Below are positions 28,915-48,983 of a stretch of DNA of 64,000 nucleotides, in pieces (position 1 is the first letter of the stretch; the number at the start of each line of letters is the position of its first letter). Below the pieces are notes generated by a model that did not search any database, was not told where the DNA came from, and saw only the letters and a program-made list of their open reading frames with translations. Source of the DNA: Candidatus Mediterraneibacter faecavium (GTDB lineage Bacteria > Bacillota > Clostridia > Lachnospirales > Lachnospiraceae). Made by a program: the position numbers and the translations under genes. The DNA is taken from assembly GCA_019119995.1 (NCBI GenBank), contig DWVY01000051.1:1-64000 (forward strand), written 5' to 3'.

Positions 28915-29550
28915 CTAAACGCCGGCTTTCTTACAGATATCCTCCAGGCAGCACCTATCACAGTTCGGTTTTGTCCGGGCCGTGCACACGTCTCTTCCGT
29001 GATAAACAAGCCGGTGGCAGAAGTCGCTGCCCTCTTCCGGCGGGATGATCTTCCAGAGCGCCATCTCAACCTTTTTCGGGTCTTTGATGCCGTCCACCAG
29101 CCCGATCCGGTTGACAAGGCGGATACAGTGGGTATCTGTCACGATCGCCGGTTTCCCGAACACATCGCCCATGATGAGATTCGCGCTCTTTCTCCCCACG
29201 CCGGGAAGTTTCATCAGATCGTCAAAATCATCCGGCACTTTTCCTCCGTATTCGTCCCGGATCATCTTCATGCACGCGCTGATATCTCTCGCCTTGCTCC
29301 TGCCGAGCCCGCAGGGACGCACGATCTCCTCAATGTCATTTACATCCGCGTCCGCCAGTGCATTTACATCGGGGTATTTTTCATACAGTCCCTCCACCAC
29401 TACATTTACGCGGGCGTCCGTACACTGTGCGGCGAGCCGGACGCTCACCAGGAGTTTCCACGCCTGATCGTAATCCAGTGTACAGCCCGCGTCCGGATAT
29501 TCCTGTTTCAGCCGTTCGATCACTTCTAATGCGCGCTGTTTCTTTGTCAT
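28915..29550 (-). CDS. nth: Endonuclease III
   Basis: HhH 'LMKLPGVGRKSANLIMGDVFGKPAIVTDTHCIRL', FeS 'CTARTKPNCDRCCLEDIC'; start moved to MTKKQRA. Confidence 0.94.
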   Translation of the reverse strand: MTKKQRALEVIERLKQEYPDAGCTLDYDQAWKLLVSVRLAAQCTDARVNVVVEGLYEKYPDVNALADADVNDIEEIVRPCGLGRSKARDISACMKMIRDEYGGKVPDDFDDLMKLPGVGRKSANLIMGDVFGKPAIVTDTHCIRLVNRIGLVDGIKDPKKVEMALWKIIPPEEGSDFCHRLVYHGRDVCTARTKPNCDRCCLEDICKKAGV

Positions 29551-39768: not shown

Positions 39769-40857
39769 TTATTCTTCCGTATATTTCGCCGACTGCATCT
39801 TAATCAGTTCCTCGTCGTCAAAGTAATTGATCTTCATCGCAGCCTTCACATCCCTAAGCGTCTCAGCGGCTACTTTCTCCGCCTTCTCGCTTCCTTTTCT
39901 GAGGATCTCATACACAGCCGGGATATCCTTCTGCCATTCTTTCCTGCGGCTGCGGATCGGCTCCAGTTCCGCCTGGAGCACATTGTTCAGGAACCGCTTC
40001 ACTTTCATATCGCCGAGGCCGCCCCTCTTATAGTGGTCTTTGAGCTCGTCAAGATCATTGTACTCCGGAAGGAACTCCGGGAAATACTCCGGCCTGCAGA
40101 ATGCATCCAGATACGTAAACACTGTGTTTCCTTCCAGTTTGCCCGGATCCTCGATACGGATATGGGTCGGATCTGTAAACATGCTGAAGACTTTCTTCTT
40201 GATCTCCTCCGGCTCCTCCGACAGATAGATGCAGTTCCCGAGGGACTTGCTCATCTTCGCCTTTCCGTCGATCCCCGGAAGGCGCATGCACGCCTCGTTG
40301 TCCGGAAGAAGGATCTGCGGCTCCACAAGAGTCTCTCCGTAGACCGAATTGAACTTGTGCACGATCTCTTTCGTCTGCTCCAGCATCGGCATCTGATCCT
40401 CGCCCACAGGCACGACCGTCGCCTTAAACGCCGTGATGTCAGCCGCCTGGCTGATCGGATAGGTAAAGAATCCCACCGGGATGCTCGCCTCGAAATTGCG
40501 CATCTTGATCTCGGTCTTTACCGTAGGATTGCGCTGCAGCCTTGACACAGTCACCAGGTTCATATAGTAGAACGACAGCTCGCACAGCTCCGGGATCTGG
40601 GACTGGATCAGCAGCGTCGATTTCTCCGGGTCAAGTCCGCAGGCAAGGTAGTCCAGAGCCACCTCGATGATGTTCTGGCGCACCTTCTCCGGATTGTCCG
40701 CATTGTCGGTCAGCGCCTGCGCATCCGCTATCATGATAAATATATCGTCAAAATCTCCTGTATTCTGAAGCTCTACCCGACGTCTCAGGGAACCCACGTA
40801 ATGTCCGACGTGGAGTTTCCCCGTAGGACGGTCTCCGGTAAGCATAATCTTCTTCAT
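39769..40857 (-). CDS. trpS: Tryptophanyl-tRNA synthetase
   Basis: '[19 protein letters not shown]', '[17 protein letters not shown]'. Confidence 0.95.
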
Positions 40858-40926
40858 CCTTTTTCCTCCTGATCCTATTACTTATTGCCGGCAGGAACGC
40901 CGGCATCTCTCTTTTTCTTTCCTCTG

Positions 40927-41613
40927 TCACAGCACCGGCCTCTTCTGGCTCTTCTGTCCCGCGAACTTCGGGACACGGCGTCTCTGCGGCGCATATACAA
41001 ACTGATACAGAACGCATGCCATCACGCCCGCCCCGAGCACATCCAGGACCGAATGCTGCTTCAGGAACATCGTCGCGAGTATAATCAGCCCTGCCAGCAC
41101 ATAGGCGCCGGCGCATATCCCCTTATGCTTTCTGAGCGCCCCGCTCTCTCCTACAGCGATGCACACGCTCAGAGAATTGAACACATGAAGGCTCGGGAAC
41201 ACATTCGTACATGTATCCGCCCGGTAAAGCGTTCTCACCATATCCACGAAAATATTATCCCGTTCAAAGACAACCGGACGCAGATCCTGTCCGTTCGGGA
41301 ATATGGTACATATGATGAGAAATACAGTCATCCCCGTAAACATGAATTTGGCCAGTCTGTAAAATCCCGGCACATCTGTAAAGAAAAAATACAGAAACGC
41401 CGCGACGATAAACACAAACCACAGCAGATACGGGATGATAAAATATTCGATGAACGGAATATGCTCATCCAGTCTGATCTGGATCACATGGTAATGTGTG
41501 GTCACATGTTTCTCAAGAAACAGAAACCACGGCATATAAATAAAGATATATAGAAACACCCATGCATGCCTGTATTTCTTAACCAGTCCTGCAAATCTAT
41601 TTTTCAGCTTCAT
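40927..41613 (-). CDS. PAP2 superfamily phosphatase
   Basis: 'NVFPSLHVFNSLSVCIAVGE', 'MFLKQHSVLDVLGAGVM'. Confidence 0.85.
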   Translation of the reverse strand: MKLKNRFAGLVKKYRHAWVFLYIFIYMPWFLFLEKHVTTHYHVIQIRLDEHIPFIEYFIIPYLLWFVFIVAAFLYFFFTDVPGFYRLAKFMFTGMTVFLIICTIFPNGQDLRPVVFERDNIFVDMVRTLYRADTCTNVFPSLHVFNSLSVCIAVGESGALRKHKGICAGAYVLAGLIILATMFLKQHSVLDVLGAGVMACVLYQFVYAPQRRRVPKFAGQKSQKRPVL

Positions 41614-41786
41614 AGCGATGCCCCTTTGAATACAGTTTTGCCTGTTTTTACTTCCCCGGTCAGTTTATCATATCCTCTCAATCGCATCGATTATAGCACG
41701 ATTTAAAACCGTCAACAACTGTCTTCACAAAACATTTATTAAATCTTTCGATTTCAGGACAGGGCACAGCCGTAACAGATCATGCT

Positions 41787-42707
41787 TTATCCCGTGATCA
41801 CCCGAAGACTTTCTCTCATAAACGACGCCCTGACTTCTTTCCTTAGAAATCCCGGTTCTCCGTCCGTGTGCAGCGGAAGCGGTTTCTCTGTTCTGACCTG
41901 TATTTCTTTACACCTTATGAGCGTAACACCTTTAAATCCCGTATGTTTACCCCAGAACGCCAGCGGCAGCAGACACAGGATCTTCACCACGGGGAGACCG
42001 TGTACGATAATCACATCCATCTCACCGTCCGCCGGAGACGCCTCCGGACAGAACTTAAATCCGCCGCCCTCATAAGGCAGGTTCATAAATGCTGCAAAAT
42101 ACGCTCTCTCAAATGTCCGGACCGTGCCGTCTGCAAGTGTCACTGTCATTTCCGCCGGCCGGTCTTTTTTCAGCCGGTCCAGAGCCACCACCGCATAACT
42201 CAGTTTTCCCAATCCAATGCGGTTCAGCAGTACTTTCCATTTTGAGACACACACTTCATGACAGACCGCAGCGTCAAACCCGATCCCGGCGCTCACGGCG
42301 AAGCGCCTTTGCCGGCCTGCTGCACACAGTACTCCTACATCCATATATATGATCTTCTGAGGGGCAAGTATGATATCCAGCGCTTTCTCAGGATCTTTCG
42401 GGATCTTCAAGCCCCGTGCGAAATCATTGCTCGACCCGATCGGAATGTATCCGAGAGTCACTTTCCCCGGTTCTCTGATCCCGTTGACCACTTCATTCAC
42501 GGTGCCGTCTCCTCCCAGGACCACGATCCTGTGCTCCTGCCCGTCCGCTGTGATCCGTCCGGCGATCTTCCGCGCATGATTCCTGCTCTTTGTCATGTAG
42601 CAGCAATAATCCACACGCTTTTTCTTAAGTTCCGGTTCGATCATCCTCCATATCATCTCGCCCATCCCCGTGCGGGCTTTCGGGTTTACAATAAAATGAT
42701 ATTCCAT
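41787..42707 (-). CDS. Diacylglycerol/lipid kinase family protein
   Basis: 'HFIVNPKARTG', 'VVLGGDGTVNEVVNGI', 'LGYIPIGSSNDFARGLKIP'. Confidence 0.93.
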   Translation of the reverse strand: MEYHFIVNPKARTGMGEMIWRMIEPELKKKRVDYCCYMTKSRNHARKIAGRITADGQEHRIVVLGGDGTVNEVVNGIREPGKVTLGYIPIGSSNDFARGLKIPKDPEKALDIILAPQKIIYMDVGVLCAAGRQRRFAVSAGIGFDAAVCHEVCVSKWKVLLNRIGLGKLSYAVVALDRLKKDRPAEMTVTLADGTVRTFERAYFAAFMNLPYEGGGFKFCPEASPADGEMDVIIVHGLPVVKILCLLPLAFWGKHTGFKGVTLIRCKEIQVRTEKPLPLHTDGEPGFLRKEVRASFMRESLRVITG

Positions 42708-42718
42708 CTCCGCCGACC

Positions 42719-43327
42719 TTACCCCCTGCAAAGTGCTGCATCCAGATATTTGCCGAGTGACCTTGCCATGTTCCCTTCAAAATCAGCCTCGCCGTGCTTT
42801 ACACACCACTCAAAGACATTTCCGATCACGATCATCCTGATATCTGTCGTAAATTCCTCAATGCTCTCATTCAGGCTCACGATCCCTGCCTGTTCGGCCT
42901 TTTCCACATAGTTCTGCACTGTCACGATGGGATAGGGCCGCTCCATACGGATCGCCGCATTGAGCGCCTGATTCTTCGTATCGTAGTATTCCGACATGAA
43001 TTCCACGCCCAGCTCCCGGCAGTATTTCACATAGTTCATATACACCTGGATGATCCCTTCTTTCACTCCGTCCACACTGTCCGGCAGTTCCAGAAGATCC
43101 GGGTCGATCTTCGGCTGATCCTCGATATAGTAAGACAGCAGATCGTCTTTTGTCTTGAAATGATGATAGAAACTGCCGTTGGAGACTCCCGCCTCCTCGC
43201 AGATATTCTTAATAGACAGCTCCTCGTACCCTTTTTTCTGCAGGATCCGCTTTGCCGCCTGGAATATCTTCTCTTTCGTCTCCCGCGATTTCTGCTGCTG
43301 TCTGGAAATAGATGCTTTTTCACTCAT
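42719..43327 (-). CDS. TetR/AcrR family regulator
   Basis: 'TKEKIFQAAKRILQKKGYEELSIKNICEEAGVSNGSFYHHFKTKDDLL'. Confidence 0.94.
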   Translation of the reverse strand: MSEKASISRQQQKSRETKEKIFQAAKRILQKKGYEELSIKNICEEAGVSNGSFYHHFKTKDDLLSYYIEDQPKIDPDLLELPDSVDGVKEGIIQVYMNYVKYCRELGVEFMSEYYDTKNQALNAAIRMERPYPIVTVQNYVEKAEQAGIVSLNESIEEFTTDIRMIVIGNVFEWCVKHGEADFEGNMARSLGKYLDAALCRG

Positions 43328-43436
43328 TTTGTGATACTCTCCTGTTTTTTGTACGAGTCCATTGTACCACATGCGCCTACCCGTTTCAAGAAAACAGAGC
43401 GGACTCGGTAACTGTTACATCCTGTCCGGGCTGACG

Positions 43437-45179
43437 CTATTTTGGCATATACGCCTCAAATGCAGCAGGCATCGGATATTCTTCCTGAAGCTGCCGTATC
43501 CCTGCGAAAATGATGCCGTTTTTCTTCCGCTCCTCAGCCGTCATATTTTTCTCAAGCTCATCCACCAGGATCTCATATCCGGTCATATGCCACTCTACAT
43601 GACTGAATATATGCTTTGCATTTCCCAGTCTTCTGATGCGGATCGGCGTCAGCCCCAGCGATTTTCCGTACTCGACCACCTCGTCATGCTCCATATGCCC
43701 TTCCCTGTTCGGGAACTCGTACATCCCTGCCAGCAGACCTTTTGCCGGGCGTTTCCTGATCGCCGCCTTCTCCGCATCCCGGAAAAGCAGCACGGTCCGG
43801 TTCTCGATCCGGCGATCCTTCGCTTTCGTCTTCACCGGGAATTCCATCTCCCGCCCCTGCTCATGCGCCAGACAGAGATCATTTACAGGACACACATCAC
43901 ACCGGGGCCCGCCGTTCGGCAGACAGACAACAGCCCCCAGCTCGATCAGGCTCTGGTTGAAATCGTCTGCCGCATCTCCCGGGATCACTTCCTCGATCTC
44001 TTTTTCGATCTTCGCCTTGGTCCCGGCTTTCGCGATATCCGAATCATCCGCCGTGATCCGGCTTACAACACGCAGCACATTTCCATCCACGGCAGGTTTC
44101 GGGATATTGTAGACAAAGGAGCTGATCGCGCCTGCCGTATAACTGCCGATCCCTTTCAGCGAACGGATCTCGTCATATGTCTCAGGGAACTTTCCGTCAT
44201 ATTCATCCATGATCTGGCAGGCTGCATATTTCAGGTTCCTCGCCCGGTTATAATATCCCAGTCCTTCCCATAATTTCAGAAGGCGGTCTTCCGGGACTTC
44301 CGCCAGCGCCTTTACATCCGGCAGTTCTCTCAGGAAACGTTCATAATACGGCTTTACCGCCTCCACTCTTGTCTGTTGGAGCATGATCTCGGATATCCAC
44401 ACCCGGTAAGCGTCCATCCGCTCTCTCCACGGCAGATCCCGCTTATTCTCCCGGAACCATCCCACAAGCGGTTTCGCCGCTTCTTTCAGCCTCGGGCTTT
44501 CCAACACCACGTCCACCGGCCTTCGGATCATGATACTGTCCGGCGTCACTTTGCAGTCATAGGCAAGGATCTTCACCCCTGCTGCCGCAGCCTTTTTCAA
44601 TGCTTCCGCAAACGCCGGATGGGTATCCGTATTCGGCGTGAAATACCTGACATTCTCCATCTGGATCACAAAGAATACATAGGTCTCATACCCTTCTTTC
44701 TTCGCCCGGATCAGCTCTTCCAGATGCTTTACCGCCCGGTCGCTGGGCGCATCCGGGAACCGGCACACACCGTCTTCCTCCAGTGTGACGCCCTTTACTT
44801 CAATGAATATCCTGCGATCCCCGGCTTCCACATACAGGTCGAATCTGGAATTCCCATACGTCGTCTCCGGACGGACCAGCCGCACATCACGAAAGAGATT
44901 CCCGTCTTCGATCCACTCCTGAACCACTTTATTCGGGATCTGGGAATCCATGTTGATCAGACGCTCTCCTTTCTCCACCGCGATCAGATCCCACTTTGTC
45001 TTCCTTGCAGGATTGCCGCTCTCCTGTATATAGACCGGCGCGCCGGGAACAAGCAGCTCCGCGCACCGCCCTGTATTCTTCACATGTACCGTCTCTTTCT
45101 GTCCGTTTAGCTGCGCATATGCGATAAAACGGTTCGGCCGCTCTATAAAGACTGCCTTTTGCATCCGTTCATAATTCAT
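43437..45179 (-). CDS. Fusion: N-terminal SfsA + C-terminal MutY A/G-specific adenine glycosylase
   Basis: SfsA 'HVKNTGRCAELLVPG...GNSRFDLYVEAGDRRIFIEVKGVTLEEDGVCRFPDAPSDRAVKHLEELI'; MutY 'WFRENKRDLPWRERMDAYRVWISEIMLQQTRVEAV', 'LKGIGSYTAGAISSFVYNIPKPAVDGNVLRV', FeS Cys cluster. Confidence 0.95.
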   Translation of the reverse strand: MNYERMQKAVFIERPNRFIAYAQLNGQKETVHVKNTGRCAELLVPGAPVYIQESGNPARKTKWDLIAVEKGERLINMDSQIPNKVVQEWIEDGNLFRDVRLVRPETTYGNSRFDLYVEAGDRRIFIEVKGVTLEEDGVCRFPDAPSDRAVKHLEELIRAKKEGYETYVFFVIQMENVRYFTPNTDTHPAFAEALKKAAAAGVKILAYDCKVTPDSIMIRRPVDVVLESPRLKEAAKPLVGWFRENKRDLPWRERMDAYRVWISEIMLQQTRVEAVKPYYERFLRELPDVKALAEVPEDRLLKLWEGLGYYNRARNLKYAACQIMDEYDGKFPETYDEIRSLKGIGSYTAGAISSFVYNIPKPAVDGNVLRVVSRITADDSDIAKAGTKAKIEKEIEEVIPGDAADDFNQSLIELGAVVCLPNGGPRCDVCPVNDLCLAHEQGREMEFPVKTKAKDRRIENRTVLLFRDAEKAAIRKRPAKGLLAGMYEFPNREGHMEHDEVVEYGKSLGLTPIRIRRLGNAKHIFSHVEWHMTGYEILVDELEKNMTAEERKKNGIIFAGIRQLQEEYPMPAAFEAYMPK

Positions 45180-45236
45180 GTATATTCACTCTCCCTGCCG
45201 ATAAAATGATGTCAGGGCATCCTGACATCATAAACG

Positions 45237-45316
45237 AACGCCGGAATCATTCCGGATCACACGCGGCATACGCTTTTTCCCGTATACCGCCGTAATGCCA
45301 TCATAATTCCGGCGTT
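45237..45316 (-). other. Candidate structured RNA or nested palindrome upstream of sfsA-mutY
   Basis: Outer 11-bp stem AACGCCGGAAT/ATTCCGGCGTT; inner 10-bp hairpin that pairs fully (one G-U) only in the minus-strand RNA. Confidence 0.5.
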
Positions 45317-45399
45317 GTCTGCTGTCAATGTAAAATAATGCCGGGGCAGAAGCCCCCGATATGATGCGTGGTGTCCGCGGACAGTTCCGTGCCGCGCAC

Positions 45400-46224
45400 T
45401 CACAGGATCTTGGACAGGAACTCTTTCAGCCTCTCATCCTTCGGATGTTCGAAGAACTCCTCCGGCGGAGCCTCCTCAAGGATCTGTCCGTCGTCCATAA
45501 AGATCACCCGCGAAGCCACCTCCCTAGCAAAGCCCATCTCATGTGTGACGACAACCATCGTCATTCCGTCTTTCGCCAGTTCCTTCATCAGGTCGAGCAC
45601 CTCGCCGACCATCTCCGGATCCAGCGCCGATGTAGGTTCGTCGAAAAGGATCACGTCCGGGTTCATTGCAAGAGACCGGATGATCGCGACTCTCTGCTTC
45701 TGACCGCCTGAGAGCGTGGACGGATAGACATCCGCCTTGTCGTCCAGCCCGATCCTCTTTAAGAGATCCATCGCCTGCTTCTTCGCCTCGCTTTTGATCT
45801 GCTCCTTCGTCGTCGTGATCGGGATCAGGTCTTCCTTCCGGCTGCGGAATACATTTTTCAGACGGATCATGCGGTTCTTCCGCTTCGCTTTCTTCAGGTC
45901 CTGGCACCGCAGATAAGCCGGGGCCAGCATCACGTTCTGGAGCACCGTCTTATTGTTAAACAGATTGAAATGCTGGAACACCATCCCCATATGGCGGCGG
46001 TGTACATTGATGTCGACCTTCATGTCGGCAATGTCAACGCCTTTAAATATAATGCTGCCCGACGTCGGATCCTCCATACAGTTCAGACACCGGAGAAATG
46101 TACTCTTGCCGGAACCTGACGGGCCGAGCACCGCGACGATATCGCCTTTGTTGATGGTGATGTTGATTCCTTTGAGGACCTCAAGCCCTCCGAAGCTTTT
46201 CCTAAGATTAATTACGTCTATCAC
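45400..46224 (-). CDS. Polar amino acid ABC transporter ATPase (GlnQ-like)
   Basis: '[23 protein letters not shown]', '[40 protein letters not shown]'. Confidence 0.94.
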
Positions 46225-46918
46225 TCTTCCTCAGGCTCCTTTCCAGTAATTTGACCAACAGTGAGATCACCAGCACAAGTACGATATAGATCGCCGCCAT
46301 TACCAGATACGGCACCATAAAGTCATAGCTGTTTGATCCGATATAGTTAAACGCCACATAGAGATCCGCAGCAGCGACAAAGCTGACGACCGACGTCTCT
46401 TTCACCAGTGTAATAAACTCGTTTCCCAGAGTCGGAAGGATATTCTTGACCGCCTGCGGGATCACGATCTTTGTCATGCTTGTGCTGAAGCTTAAGCCCA
46501 CCGCGCGCCCCGCTTCCATCTGTCCGATGTCCACCGACTGGATACCGCTCCGCATGATCTCCGATATGTAAGCGCCGCTGTTGAGTCCGAATACGATCAT
46601 TGATATCTGTACGCCGTCCAGGTTTACCCCGATCAGCGGCAGGATAACATAGTAGCCGACAAGCAACTGCACCACCATAGGCGTTCCCCTGAACAGCGCC
46701 ACATAAAAGCTGCAGATGCCATTGAGCACTCTCGGAAGCCGTCTGTACTTCGGGATCACCCTCACGGTCGCGATCAATGTTCCGATCACGATACCGACGA
46801 TCAGTCCGGTAACCGCGATCAGGAGCGTATTCTGAAGACCTTCCACCACTCTCGTATAACCGTTCTGGGCAATAAACACTTCTACAAATTTGTCTATTCT
46901 CTGACTAAAATTACTCAT
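46208..46918 (-). CDS. Polar amino acid ABC transporter permease
   Basis: '[20 protein letters not shown]', '[29 protein letters not shown]'. Confidence 0.94.
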
Positions 46919-46937
46919 TGCTTTCCCTTCTCAAAAG

Positions 46938-46989
46938 AAGGAAAATGCCTGCATCCCGGTCAGCCGTCAATGATGCCTGTATTTTCCTT
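46938..46989 (-). terminator. Intercistronic stem-loop between the SBP and permease genes
   Basis: AAGGAAAAT ... ATTTTCCTT. Confidence 0.45.
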
Positions 46990-47046
46990 CCTGCTTAAGT
47001 CCTTTTCTCTATTTTACTGCCTGTCCTGTACCGTCAGACGCCGCGC

Positions 47047-47940
47047 CTACTGCATCTCATTGATGGACTCTGTGATAGCCGCTGCCGGAGCCGCGTCGAT
47101 GATCACGTAATCGATATTTCCGTTCAGCATATCCTGTACTGCCAGAGAACCGTTCTTATATGTCTTGCAGGTTACGTTAAGTCCCGGGAATCCGAGGTCA
47201 TCGCTGCCTTCTATATAGCTGTTTCCTGTCGTACCCTGCTGGCATCCGATCTGTACGGAAGAATCGAGCTCGCCAAGAGCCGCCGCGATCGTATCAGCGT
47301 CCGTCATGTCGTCAAATGTCGTATCATCGCTCGGCACGATCAGTCTCTGTGACGCCTGATAATATGTGTCGGAGAATGTCACGTACTCTTTTCTGTCTTC
47401 GCTGACTGTGAGCCCTGCCATTGCGATATCACATTTCTGCTGTCCGACTGACAGACATACCGCGTCAAAATCCATATTCTGGATCACAAGCTCCTGTCCC
47501 AGCTCCTCTGCGAGCAGAGCCGCGATCTCCATGTCGATCCCCACATAGTTCTCACCTTCCATATACTCAAAAGGCTCAAACGCCGCATTGGTCGCAACTA
47601 CGAGCTGATCCTTTGATGTATCCAGCTCTGCGGACTCTACCGGTGTCGGCTCTCCGCCGCCGAAGTATTTATCAAAGATCTCATCCAGCGTTCCGTCTTC
47701 CTGGATCTTGGCGATAAATGCATTTACCTGCTCCAGAAGTTCCGGCTGAGACTTGTCAACACCGAAGGCATACTCTTCATTTGTAAGATCCACATCAATT
47801 ACTTTTGCTGTCTTCGCGCTGCCCGCATCAGAATCCGAACCGCTTCCGCCGTTGTCACTGCCGCTGTCGCTTCCGCCGCATCCTGCGAGCATTCCGACAG
47901 TCAGGGCTGCTGTTAAGACTGCTGCCAATAACTTTTTCAT
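47047..47940 (-). CDS. Amino acid ABC transporter substrate-binding lipoprotein with circularly permuted domain order
   Basis: Lipobox LAGC; N-terminal 'EEYAFGVDKSQPELLEQVNAFIAKIQEDGTLDEIFDKYFG' (normally C-terminal) precedes 'DQLVVATNAAFEPFEYMEGENYVGIDMEIA' (normally N-terminal). Confidence 0.9.
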   Translation of the reverse strand: MKKLLAAVLTAALTVGMLAGCGGSDSGSDNGGSGSDSDAGSAKTAKVIDVDLTNEEYAFGVDKSQPELLEQVNAFIAKIQEDGTLDEIFDKYFGGGEPTPVESAELDTSKDQLVVATNAAFEPFEYMEGENYVGIDMEIAALLAEELGQELVIQNMDFDAVCLSVGQQKCDIAMAGLTVSEDRKEYVTFSDTYYQASQRLIVPSDDTTFDDMTDADTIAAALGELDSSVQIGCQQGTTGNSYIEGSDDLGFPGLNVTCKTYKNGSLAVQDMLNGNIDYVIIDAAPAAAITESINEMQ

Positions 47941-48010
47941 GTTTACATTCCTCCATTTGGTCTTTAATTTGCATAATCATACAGATTATCCTACTAATTT
48001 TAGCATGTTC

Positions 48011-48060
48011 TGCATAAATTTCAAGTCTCACATTGAAAGTTTATGCAACCAATTTATGCA
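48011..48060. promoter_or_regulatory. Putative operator region upstream of amino-acid ABC operon
   Basis: TGCATAAATTTCAA-gtctcaca-TTGAAAGTTTATGCA, plus a further TTTATGCA at 48053. Confidence 0.5.
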
Positions 48061-48121
48061 GGACAGGTAACCGTCCAGTCTGCGCAGCCCGCAAAAACAG
48101 CACGCCTGTACGGACATAGCT

Positions 48122-48949
48122 TCAGGCGAGCAGTGCCTGGATCCCGAAAAAGAGGAATACGATCACGCCCAGCACGATCCTGTAATAACCGAATACCTTG
48201 AAGTCATTCTTCCTGATATAGCTCATCAGGAACTTGATCGCTACAATAGATACTGCAAACGAGACGACCATTCCGACAAGCAGCACAGCCGCCTGCATAG
48301 CTGTAAAATTAAATCCGAACTTGACCAGCTTGAGCAGGCTTGCCCCGAACATGACCGGGATCGCCAGAAAGAACGTGTATTCCGCAGCCACACTTCTGGA
48401 TACTCCGATCATAAGGGCGCCCACGATCGTCGCGCCGGACCTGGAAGTTCCCGGGATCAGCGCCAGCATCTGGAATACTCCGATAATAAGGATCATCGGA
48501 ACCGTCAGCTGGGAGAACTTTGTAACCTGCGGCGTCTTGTCTTTCTGATAATTCTCCACCACGATAAACAAAACACCGTATATGATCAGCGTCAGCGCCA
48601 CTACATACCAGTGATATAGCTTCTTGTCGATCCAGTCGTTAAACAGCAGTCCGACCACTCCCGCCGGCACGCATCCTATGACCACCTTGATCCAGATCTG
48701 CCATGTCATCATCTTCTGCTTCTGTGTCTTCTTCGGCGAGAACGGATTCAGCTTGTGGAAATAAATCACTACTACCGCCAGGATCGCACCGAGCTGGATC
48801 ACCACCTGGAACATTTCAAAGAACGCATCTCCCTGATCCAGTTTCAGCAGCTCCTCCATTATAATAAGATGACCGGTACTGCTGATCGGAAGCCATTCTG
48901 TGATTCCTTCTACGATACCGAATATGATCGCTTTTAATATATCCAACAT
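48122..48949 (-). CDS. uppP: Undecaprenyl-diphosphate phosphatase
   Basis: 'FGIVEGITEWLPISSTGHLII', 'LIPGTSRSGATIVGALMIGVSR'; start moved to MLDILKA. Confidence 0.96.
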   Translation of the reverse strand: MLDILKAIIFGIVEGITEWLPISSTGHLIIMEELLKLDQGDAFFEMFQVVIQLGAILAVVVIYFHKLNPFSPKKTQKQKMMTWQIWIKVVIGCVPAGVVGLLFNDWIDKKLYHWYVVALTLIIYGVLFIVVENYQKDKTPQVTKFSQLTVPMILIIGVFQMLALIPGTSRSGATIVGALMIGVSRSVAAEYTFFLAIPVMFGASLLKLVKFGFNFTAMQAAVLLVGMVVSFAVSIVAIKFLMSYIRKNDFKVFGYYRIVLGVIVFLFFGIQALLA

Positions 48950-48983
48950 TTCTTCTTCCTCCTTATCAATATACAATATGTTT

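Follow-up and report, generated by a model that had tools for sequence, protein, structure and literature searches.

The window, that is, the whole stretch of 64,000 nucleotides analysed here, carries on its minus strand a single unbroken ATG-to-stop frame (43437..45179) in which SfsA and MutY are joined in one protein of 580 amino acids. The frame starts with the ATG at 45179 and, after 580 codons, ends with the stop at 43437-43439; its placement on the minus strand, where all the features of the gene described below also lie, was absent from the original prediction and is established here. The SfsA half (residues 1-226) is complete and consists of an N-terminal OB-fold domain (residues 11-76, 44952..45149; SfsA_N, PF17746, E 3.9e-24) followed by a PD-(D/E)XK (RE) domain (residues 79-213, 44541..44945; PF03749, E 4.3e-50, together with a fold match). 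In particular, the PD-(D/E)XK residues D114, E127 and K129 form the catalytic core D114 ... E127-V-K129 (44793..44840), the FPDA...R..KH motif of the SfsA family is present, and the string RFDLYVEAGDRRIFIEVKGVTLEE, quoted in the original prediction, is found in this half. A linker of five residues, ESPRL (residues 227-231, 44487..44501), then leads into the MutY half. This comprises the HhH-GPD catalytic domain (residues 261-395, 43995..44399; PF00730) with the catalytic Glu and Asp, E264 and D365, as well as Y347 and N367, an HHH match at residues 325-354, the four 4Fe-4S cysteines C419, C427, C430 and C436 (43872..43925), and a C-terminal NUDIX-like 8-oxoG-recognition domain (residues 461-577, 43449..43799; NUDIX_4, PF14815, E 1.1e-23) with the FSH loop F525-S526-H527. 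All these Pfam matches are above the cut-off, and the NCBIfam models sfsA (residues 2-220; TIGR00230, 182 bits against a cut-off of 126.45) and mutY (residues 235-493; TIGR01084, 317.5 bits against 286.5) both exceed their equivalog cut-offs. Thus, the claim that a complete SfsA and a complete MutY share one 580-residue frame is borne out by the Pfam and NCBIfam matches and by the individual residues.

Upstream of the gene, a probable ribosome-binding site, AGGGAG, is read 11 nt before the ATG (45191..45196), and a consensus scan predicts a promoter-like TTGACA-17-TATGAT element with 11 of 12 matches (45300..45328), which suggests that the fusion gene has a promoter of its own. No Rfam match was found over the gene. 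The junction in the window offers neither an ATG start nor a ribosome-binding site; an ATG with a strong SD occurs at 5 of 61 fused junctions only, whereas most unfused mutY genes next to sfsA have one. Judged from the sequence, it is therefore unlikely that translation restarts at the junction, although a weak GTG or TTG start is possible, and separate translation of MutY from an internal start, which the original prediction had named as a finding that would speak against it, receives no support from the junction scan.

The fusion contains the sole SfsA detected in the draft genome and, among four HhH-GPD genes, is the only one assigned to MutY. The remaining three comprise a probable Nth, encoded by a stand-alone gene in the window (29038-29445, minus strand, ~14 kb away), an OGG1-type protein that carries OGG_N, and one more HhH-GPD gene. 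Among named organisms, the closest relatives are Mediterraneibacter, including M. catenae, M. glycyrrhizinilyticus and [Ruminococcus] torques, which places the window in Lachnospiraceae and most probably in Mediterraneibacter. MutM/Fpg is absent from 12 of the 13 genomes of the genus, that of the window among them (entry G000:C12:29628-30026; L004:1414-2286), and since an OGG1-type protein (OGG_N plus HhH-GPD) is present, removal of 8-oxoG in this genome may use OGG1. A reading of the gene as part of a defence system was rejected, as PADLOC matched the MutY half alone to a 'nicking endonuclease' model, which is taken as a misnomer for the HhH family.

The same architecture recurs in relatives. 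In a family sample of 250 Lachnospiraceae genera, where MutY coordinates came from 150 genomes and the counts of fused and adjacent genes are thus lower bounds, SfsA and MutY are fused in one frame and in the same order in at least 28 genera, while an unfused sfsA lies directly upstream of mutY on the same strand in at least 15 further genera. The identical junction is found in dozens of genomes, including single-contig assemblies (G035, G085, G191 and G232 among them), so that chance, a frameshift or an assembly error near the junction, which had been looked for as a possible refutation, can be ruled out and the fusion is real. The search for combined SfsA and HhH-GPD domains proposed with the original prediction returned a recurrent arrangement within Lachnospiraceae and no fusion in the rest of the same-phylum sample. 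Indeed, the full-length matches in the order and phylum samples all fall within the family, none was found on plasmids, and outside the family, the phylum-sample genomes in which SfsA and MutY were each listed at E <= 1e-50 contained no adjacent sfsA-mutY pair. The wider locus (window 40500-48976) is partly common to many fused and adjacent relatives. It contains a DAG kinase, confirmed by Pfam in the window, and a PAP2-like gene, and the loci of relatives contain GDPD-like and glycosyltransferase-like genes, named by reading of the sequence; no further repair gene was recognised in this interval.

Across the Lachnospiraceae sample, SfsA was detected in 125 and MutY in 183 of the 250 genera. 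As many as 78 of the 183 genera with MutY are without SfsA and 20 of the 125 with SfsA are without MutY; each protein often occurs alone and neither, therefore, needs the other. In parallel, SfsA is commoner in genera that carry MutY (Fisher p 1.8e-4, a value that ignores the kinship of the genera), and the two co-occur more often than expected in good genomes too (Fisher p 8e-4, from a table partly derived from listed totals and likewise ignoring kinship).

The unfused relatives point to how the fusion may have arisen. In several loci (L053, L056, L059 and L107-L111), sfsA and mutY lie in the same frame with a few codons and at least one stop between them, and in others (L145-L147) the unfused genes overlap by a few bases; the in-frame pairs separated by a stop appear to represent the precursor state. 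A sfsA-mutY operon would thus give rise to the fusion by loss of the stop codon, a step that the unfused relatives support. The fused lineage also carries a mark beside the SfsA active site, FPDAP-S-xR-A-xKH, with S146 and A149 in the window (44733..44744), which is present in 42 of 46 fused proteins; T and G stand at these positions in 20 of 22 adjacent genes and in most unlinked ones. The deviating adjacent genes are L098 and L104, both of which the SfsA tree places next to the fused clade, the unlinked L174 is an exception among unlinked SfsA, and the fused exceptions are L042, L126 and L125 with T/G and L113 with T/A. The linker is nearly constant at five residues in the clade of the window and ranges from 3 to 51 residues in the other fusions. 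The longest belongs to L125 (3764-5770), which has a low-complexity linker of 51 residues and, close to the C-terminus of its MutY, a disordered insert; given its linker length and the missing S/A signature, it is likely to be a second, apparently independent fusion. As for one origin of all fusions, a single fused clade is marginally rejected in the MutY tree (AU p 0.047, a borderline value) and not rejected in the SfsA tree (AU p 0.46). The simplest account is one main, marked fusion lineage, some members of which later split or reverted, and a separate second fusion in L125.

Both halves of the protein are under strong purifying selection. In SfsA alignments that cover 46 fused proteins, 22 encoded next to mutY and 21 others, E105, S111, R112, D114, E127, K129, F141-A144, R148 and H152 are invariant throughout, and the FPDA...R..KH motif is wholly invariant in fused SfsA. 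Likewise, E264, Y347, D365, N367 and all four cysteines are invariant across 88 MutY sequences, and in the FSH loop F and H are conserved in every sequence that includes the C-terminal end of MutY. Compared with congeners, the SfsA half shows a dN/dS of 0.07-0.14 and the MutY half, where computable, one of 0.06-0.10; between the more distant pairs, synonymous sites are almost saturated. The invariant active sites and the low dN/dS indicate that the SfsA and MutY halves are both maintained as working proteins.

AlphaFold, with the 46 fused sequences as input, returned a confident model (mean pLDDT 92.1, pTM 0.85, with pLDDT 95-97 over the junction), in which the short-linker fusion is predicted to be a rigid two-domain protein whose tether places SfsA beside the MutY N-terminus. 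The model of L125 reaches a pTM of 0.58, a drop partly due to its disordered residues, and its linker is not resolved; since no fixed arrangement is seen with the 51-residue linker, no interface independent of the linker is predicted.

We consider that these observations are best accommodated, with a probability of about 0.5, by a coupled two-enzyme repair protein in which MutY makes an abasic site and SfsA engages the same DNA. As deduced from the intact residues of the family, the MutY half would find 8-oxoG:A, flip and excise the adenine and thus leave an abasic site opposite 8-oxoG, while the SfsA half, tethered about five residues away, would engage the same duplex. There, SfsA would most likely act on a phosphodiester of the strand that bears the adenine, processing or cutting it close to the abasic site, or else hold this site and hand it over. 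Three steps of the scheme are inferred: the nuclease activity of SfsA, the action of MutY on A:8-oxoG in this protein and the meeting of both halves on one DNA. In favour of coupling are the single frame, the conserved order, the maintained active sites, the tight tether, the co-occurrence of SfsA and MutY and the match of both modelled halves to solved DNA-bound folds, and the second fusion in L125 speaks for a tether that is at least tolerated, if not favoured. Against a coupled or essential role are the presence of the AP endonucleases Xth and Nfo in 13 of 13 genomes of the genus, the frequent separation of the genes, the confinement of fusion and adjacency to one family in the phylum sample, and the L125 model, which predicts no interface independent of the linker. 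The original prediction of a coupled role is therefore upheld in part: the conserved fusion, the intact catalytic sites, the tether of about five residues and the position of sfsA upstream of mutY in unfused relatives agree with it, while its proposal that SfsA works on the abasic site or at a later step is a conjecture; there is no missing AP-endonuclease step for SfsA to fill, and neither gene needs the other. In particular, SfsA as a substitute for a missing AP endonuclease is ruled out for the genus. A narrower version, in which SfsA would be the dedicated strand-processing nuclease of Lachnospiraceae MutY repair, with one polypeptide excising the adenine and then cutting or trimming the same strand, is less likely than not.

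It is a distinct possibility, even if not the one we prefer, that the fusion derives from an operon and has no mechanistic coupling, the genes having been co-transcribed until a stop was lost and the enzymes keeping unrelated jobs in one chain. Adjacent pairs with one in-frame stop or an overlap of a few bases would make such a loss easy, and the frequent occurrence of each gene alone, the presence of AP endonucleases and the varied neighbours of SfsA in other Clostridia, where inspection by eye picked out no repair gene, fit this explanation; however, order and adjacency are kept across many genera, the five-residue linker is nearly constant in the main clade, a second fusion at least seems to have arisen independently and nothing points to restarted translation. 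That SfsA is only an extra DNA-binding clamp, its OB fold and RE-like surface raising the affinity or search efficiency of MutY while the nuclease site stays idle in repair, is improbable: it accords with reported DNA binding (PMC1189080) and the solved complex 4dav, with the predicted short rigid tether beside the MutY N-terminus and with the common substitution adjoining the active site in the fused lineage, but an idle site would not require the invariance of D114, E127, K129 and the FPDA...R..KH motif in fused forms.

SfsA occurs widely among bacteria and archaea, its structures have been solved, one of them with DNA, and it is described mainly as a sugar-fermentation factor; we know of no settled function. 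Its covalent link to a well-understood glycosylase, repeated in tens of genera, thus provides a concrete place where the function of SfsA can be tested in a single-protein assay. If the two activities are coupled, the fusion would unite glycosylase and endonuclease in one enzyme against oxidative damage, based on the PD-(D/E)XK fold and not on an AP lyase, and strand processing, if true, would give SfsA a direct role in DNA repair. In the literature examined, the nuclease activity of SfsA is a prediction for which no biochemical proof was found, while its DNA binding is documented and Vsr is the best fold template for its nuclease domain (PMC1189080). A search of the open-access library yielded no paper that describes a SfsA-MutY fusion. 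By every feature that the analysis could test, the two parts fall into known families, and the fusion is a new combination of known parts that public databases presumably show as a domain architecture.

Compared with MutY (TIGR01084; Geobacillus structures 1rrs, 6u7t and 9bs2), the fusion has all the catalytic, FeS and FSH-loop residues and its modelled MutY half matches solved MutY-DNA complexes with a Foldseek TM of 0.88; it differs in bearing a 226-residue SfsA at the N-terminus. Compared with the SfsA family (TIGR00230/PF03749, COG1489; 4dap from E. coli, 4da2/4dav from P. furiosus), it has the OB fold, the PD-(D/E)XK domain and all the conserved residues, with TM values by target of 0.91 against 4dap and 0.88 against 4dav, but its SfsA is not free-standing, and most of the fused lineage carries S146/A149, in contrast to T/G in most others. 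Finally, the Vsr-type mismatch endonucleases, which are PD-(D/E)XK relatives, nick at a mismatch and offer a plausible functional analogy for SfsA; the likeness is one of fold template and analogy, and SfsA differs from Vsr in having a standard D...ExK site and in being joined to a glycosylase.
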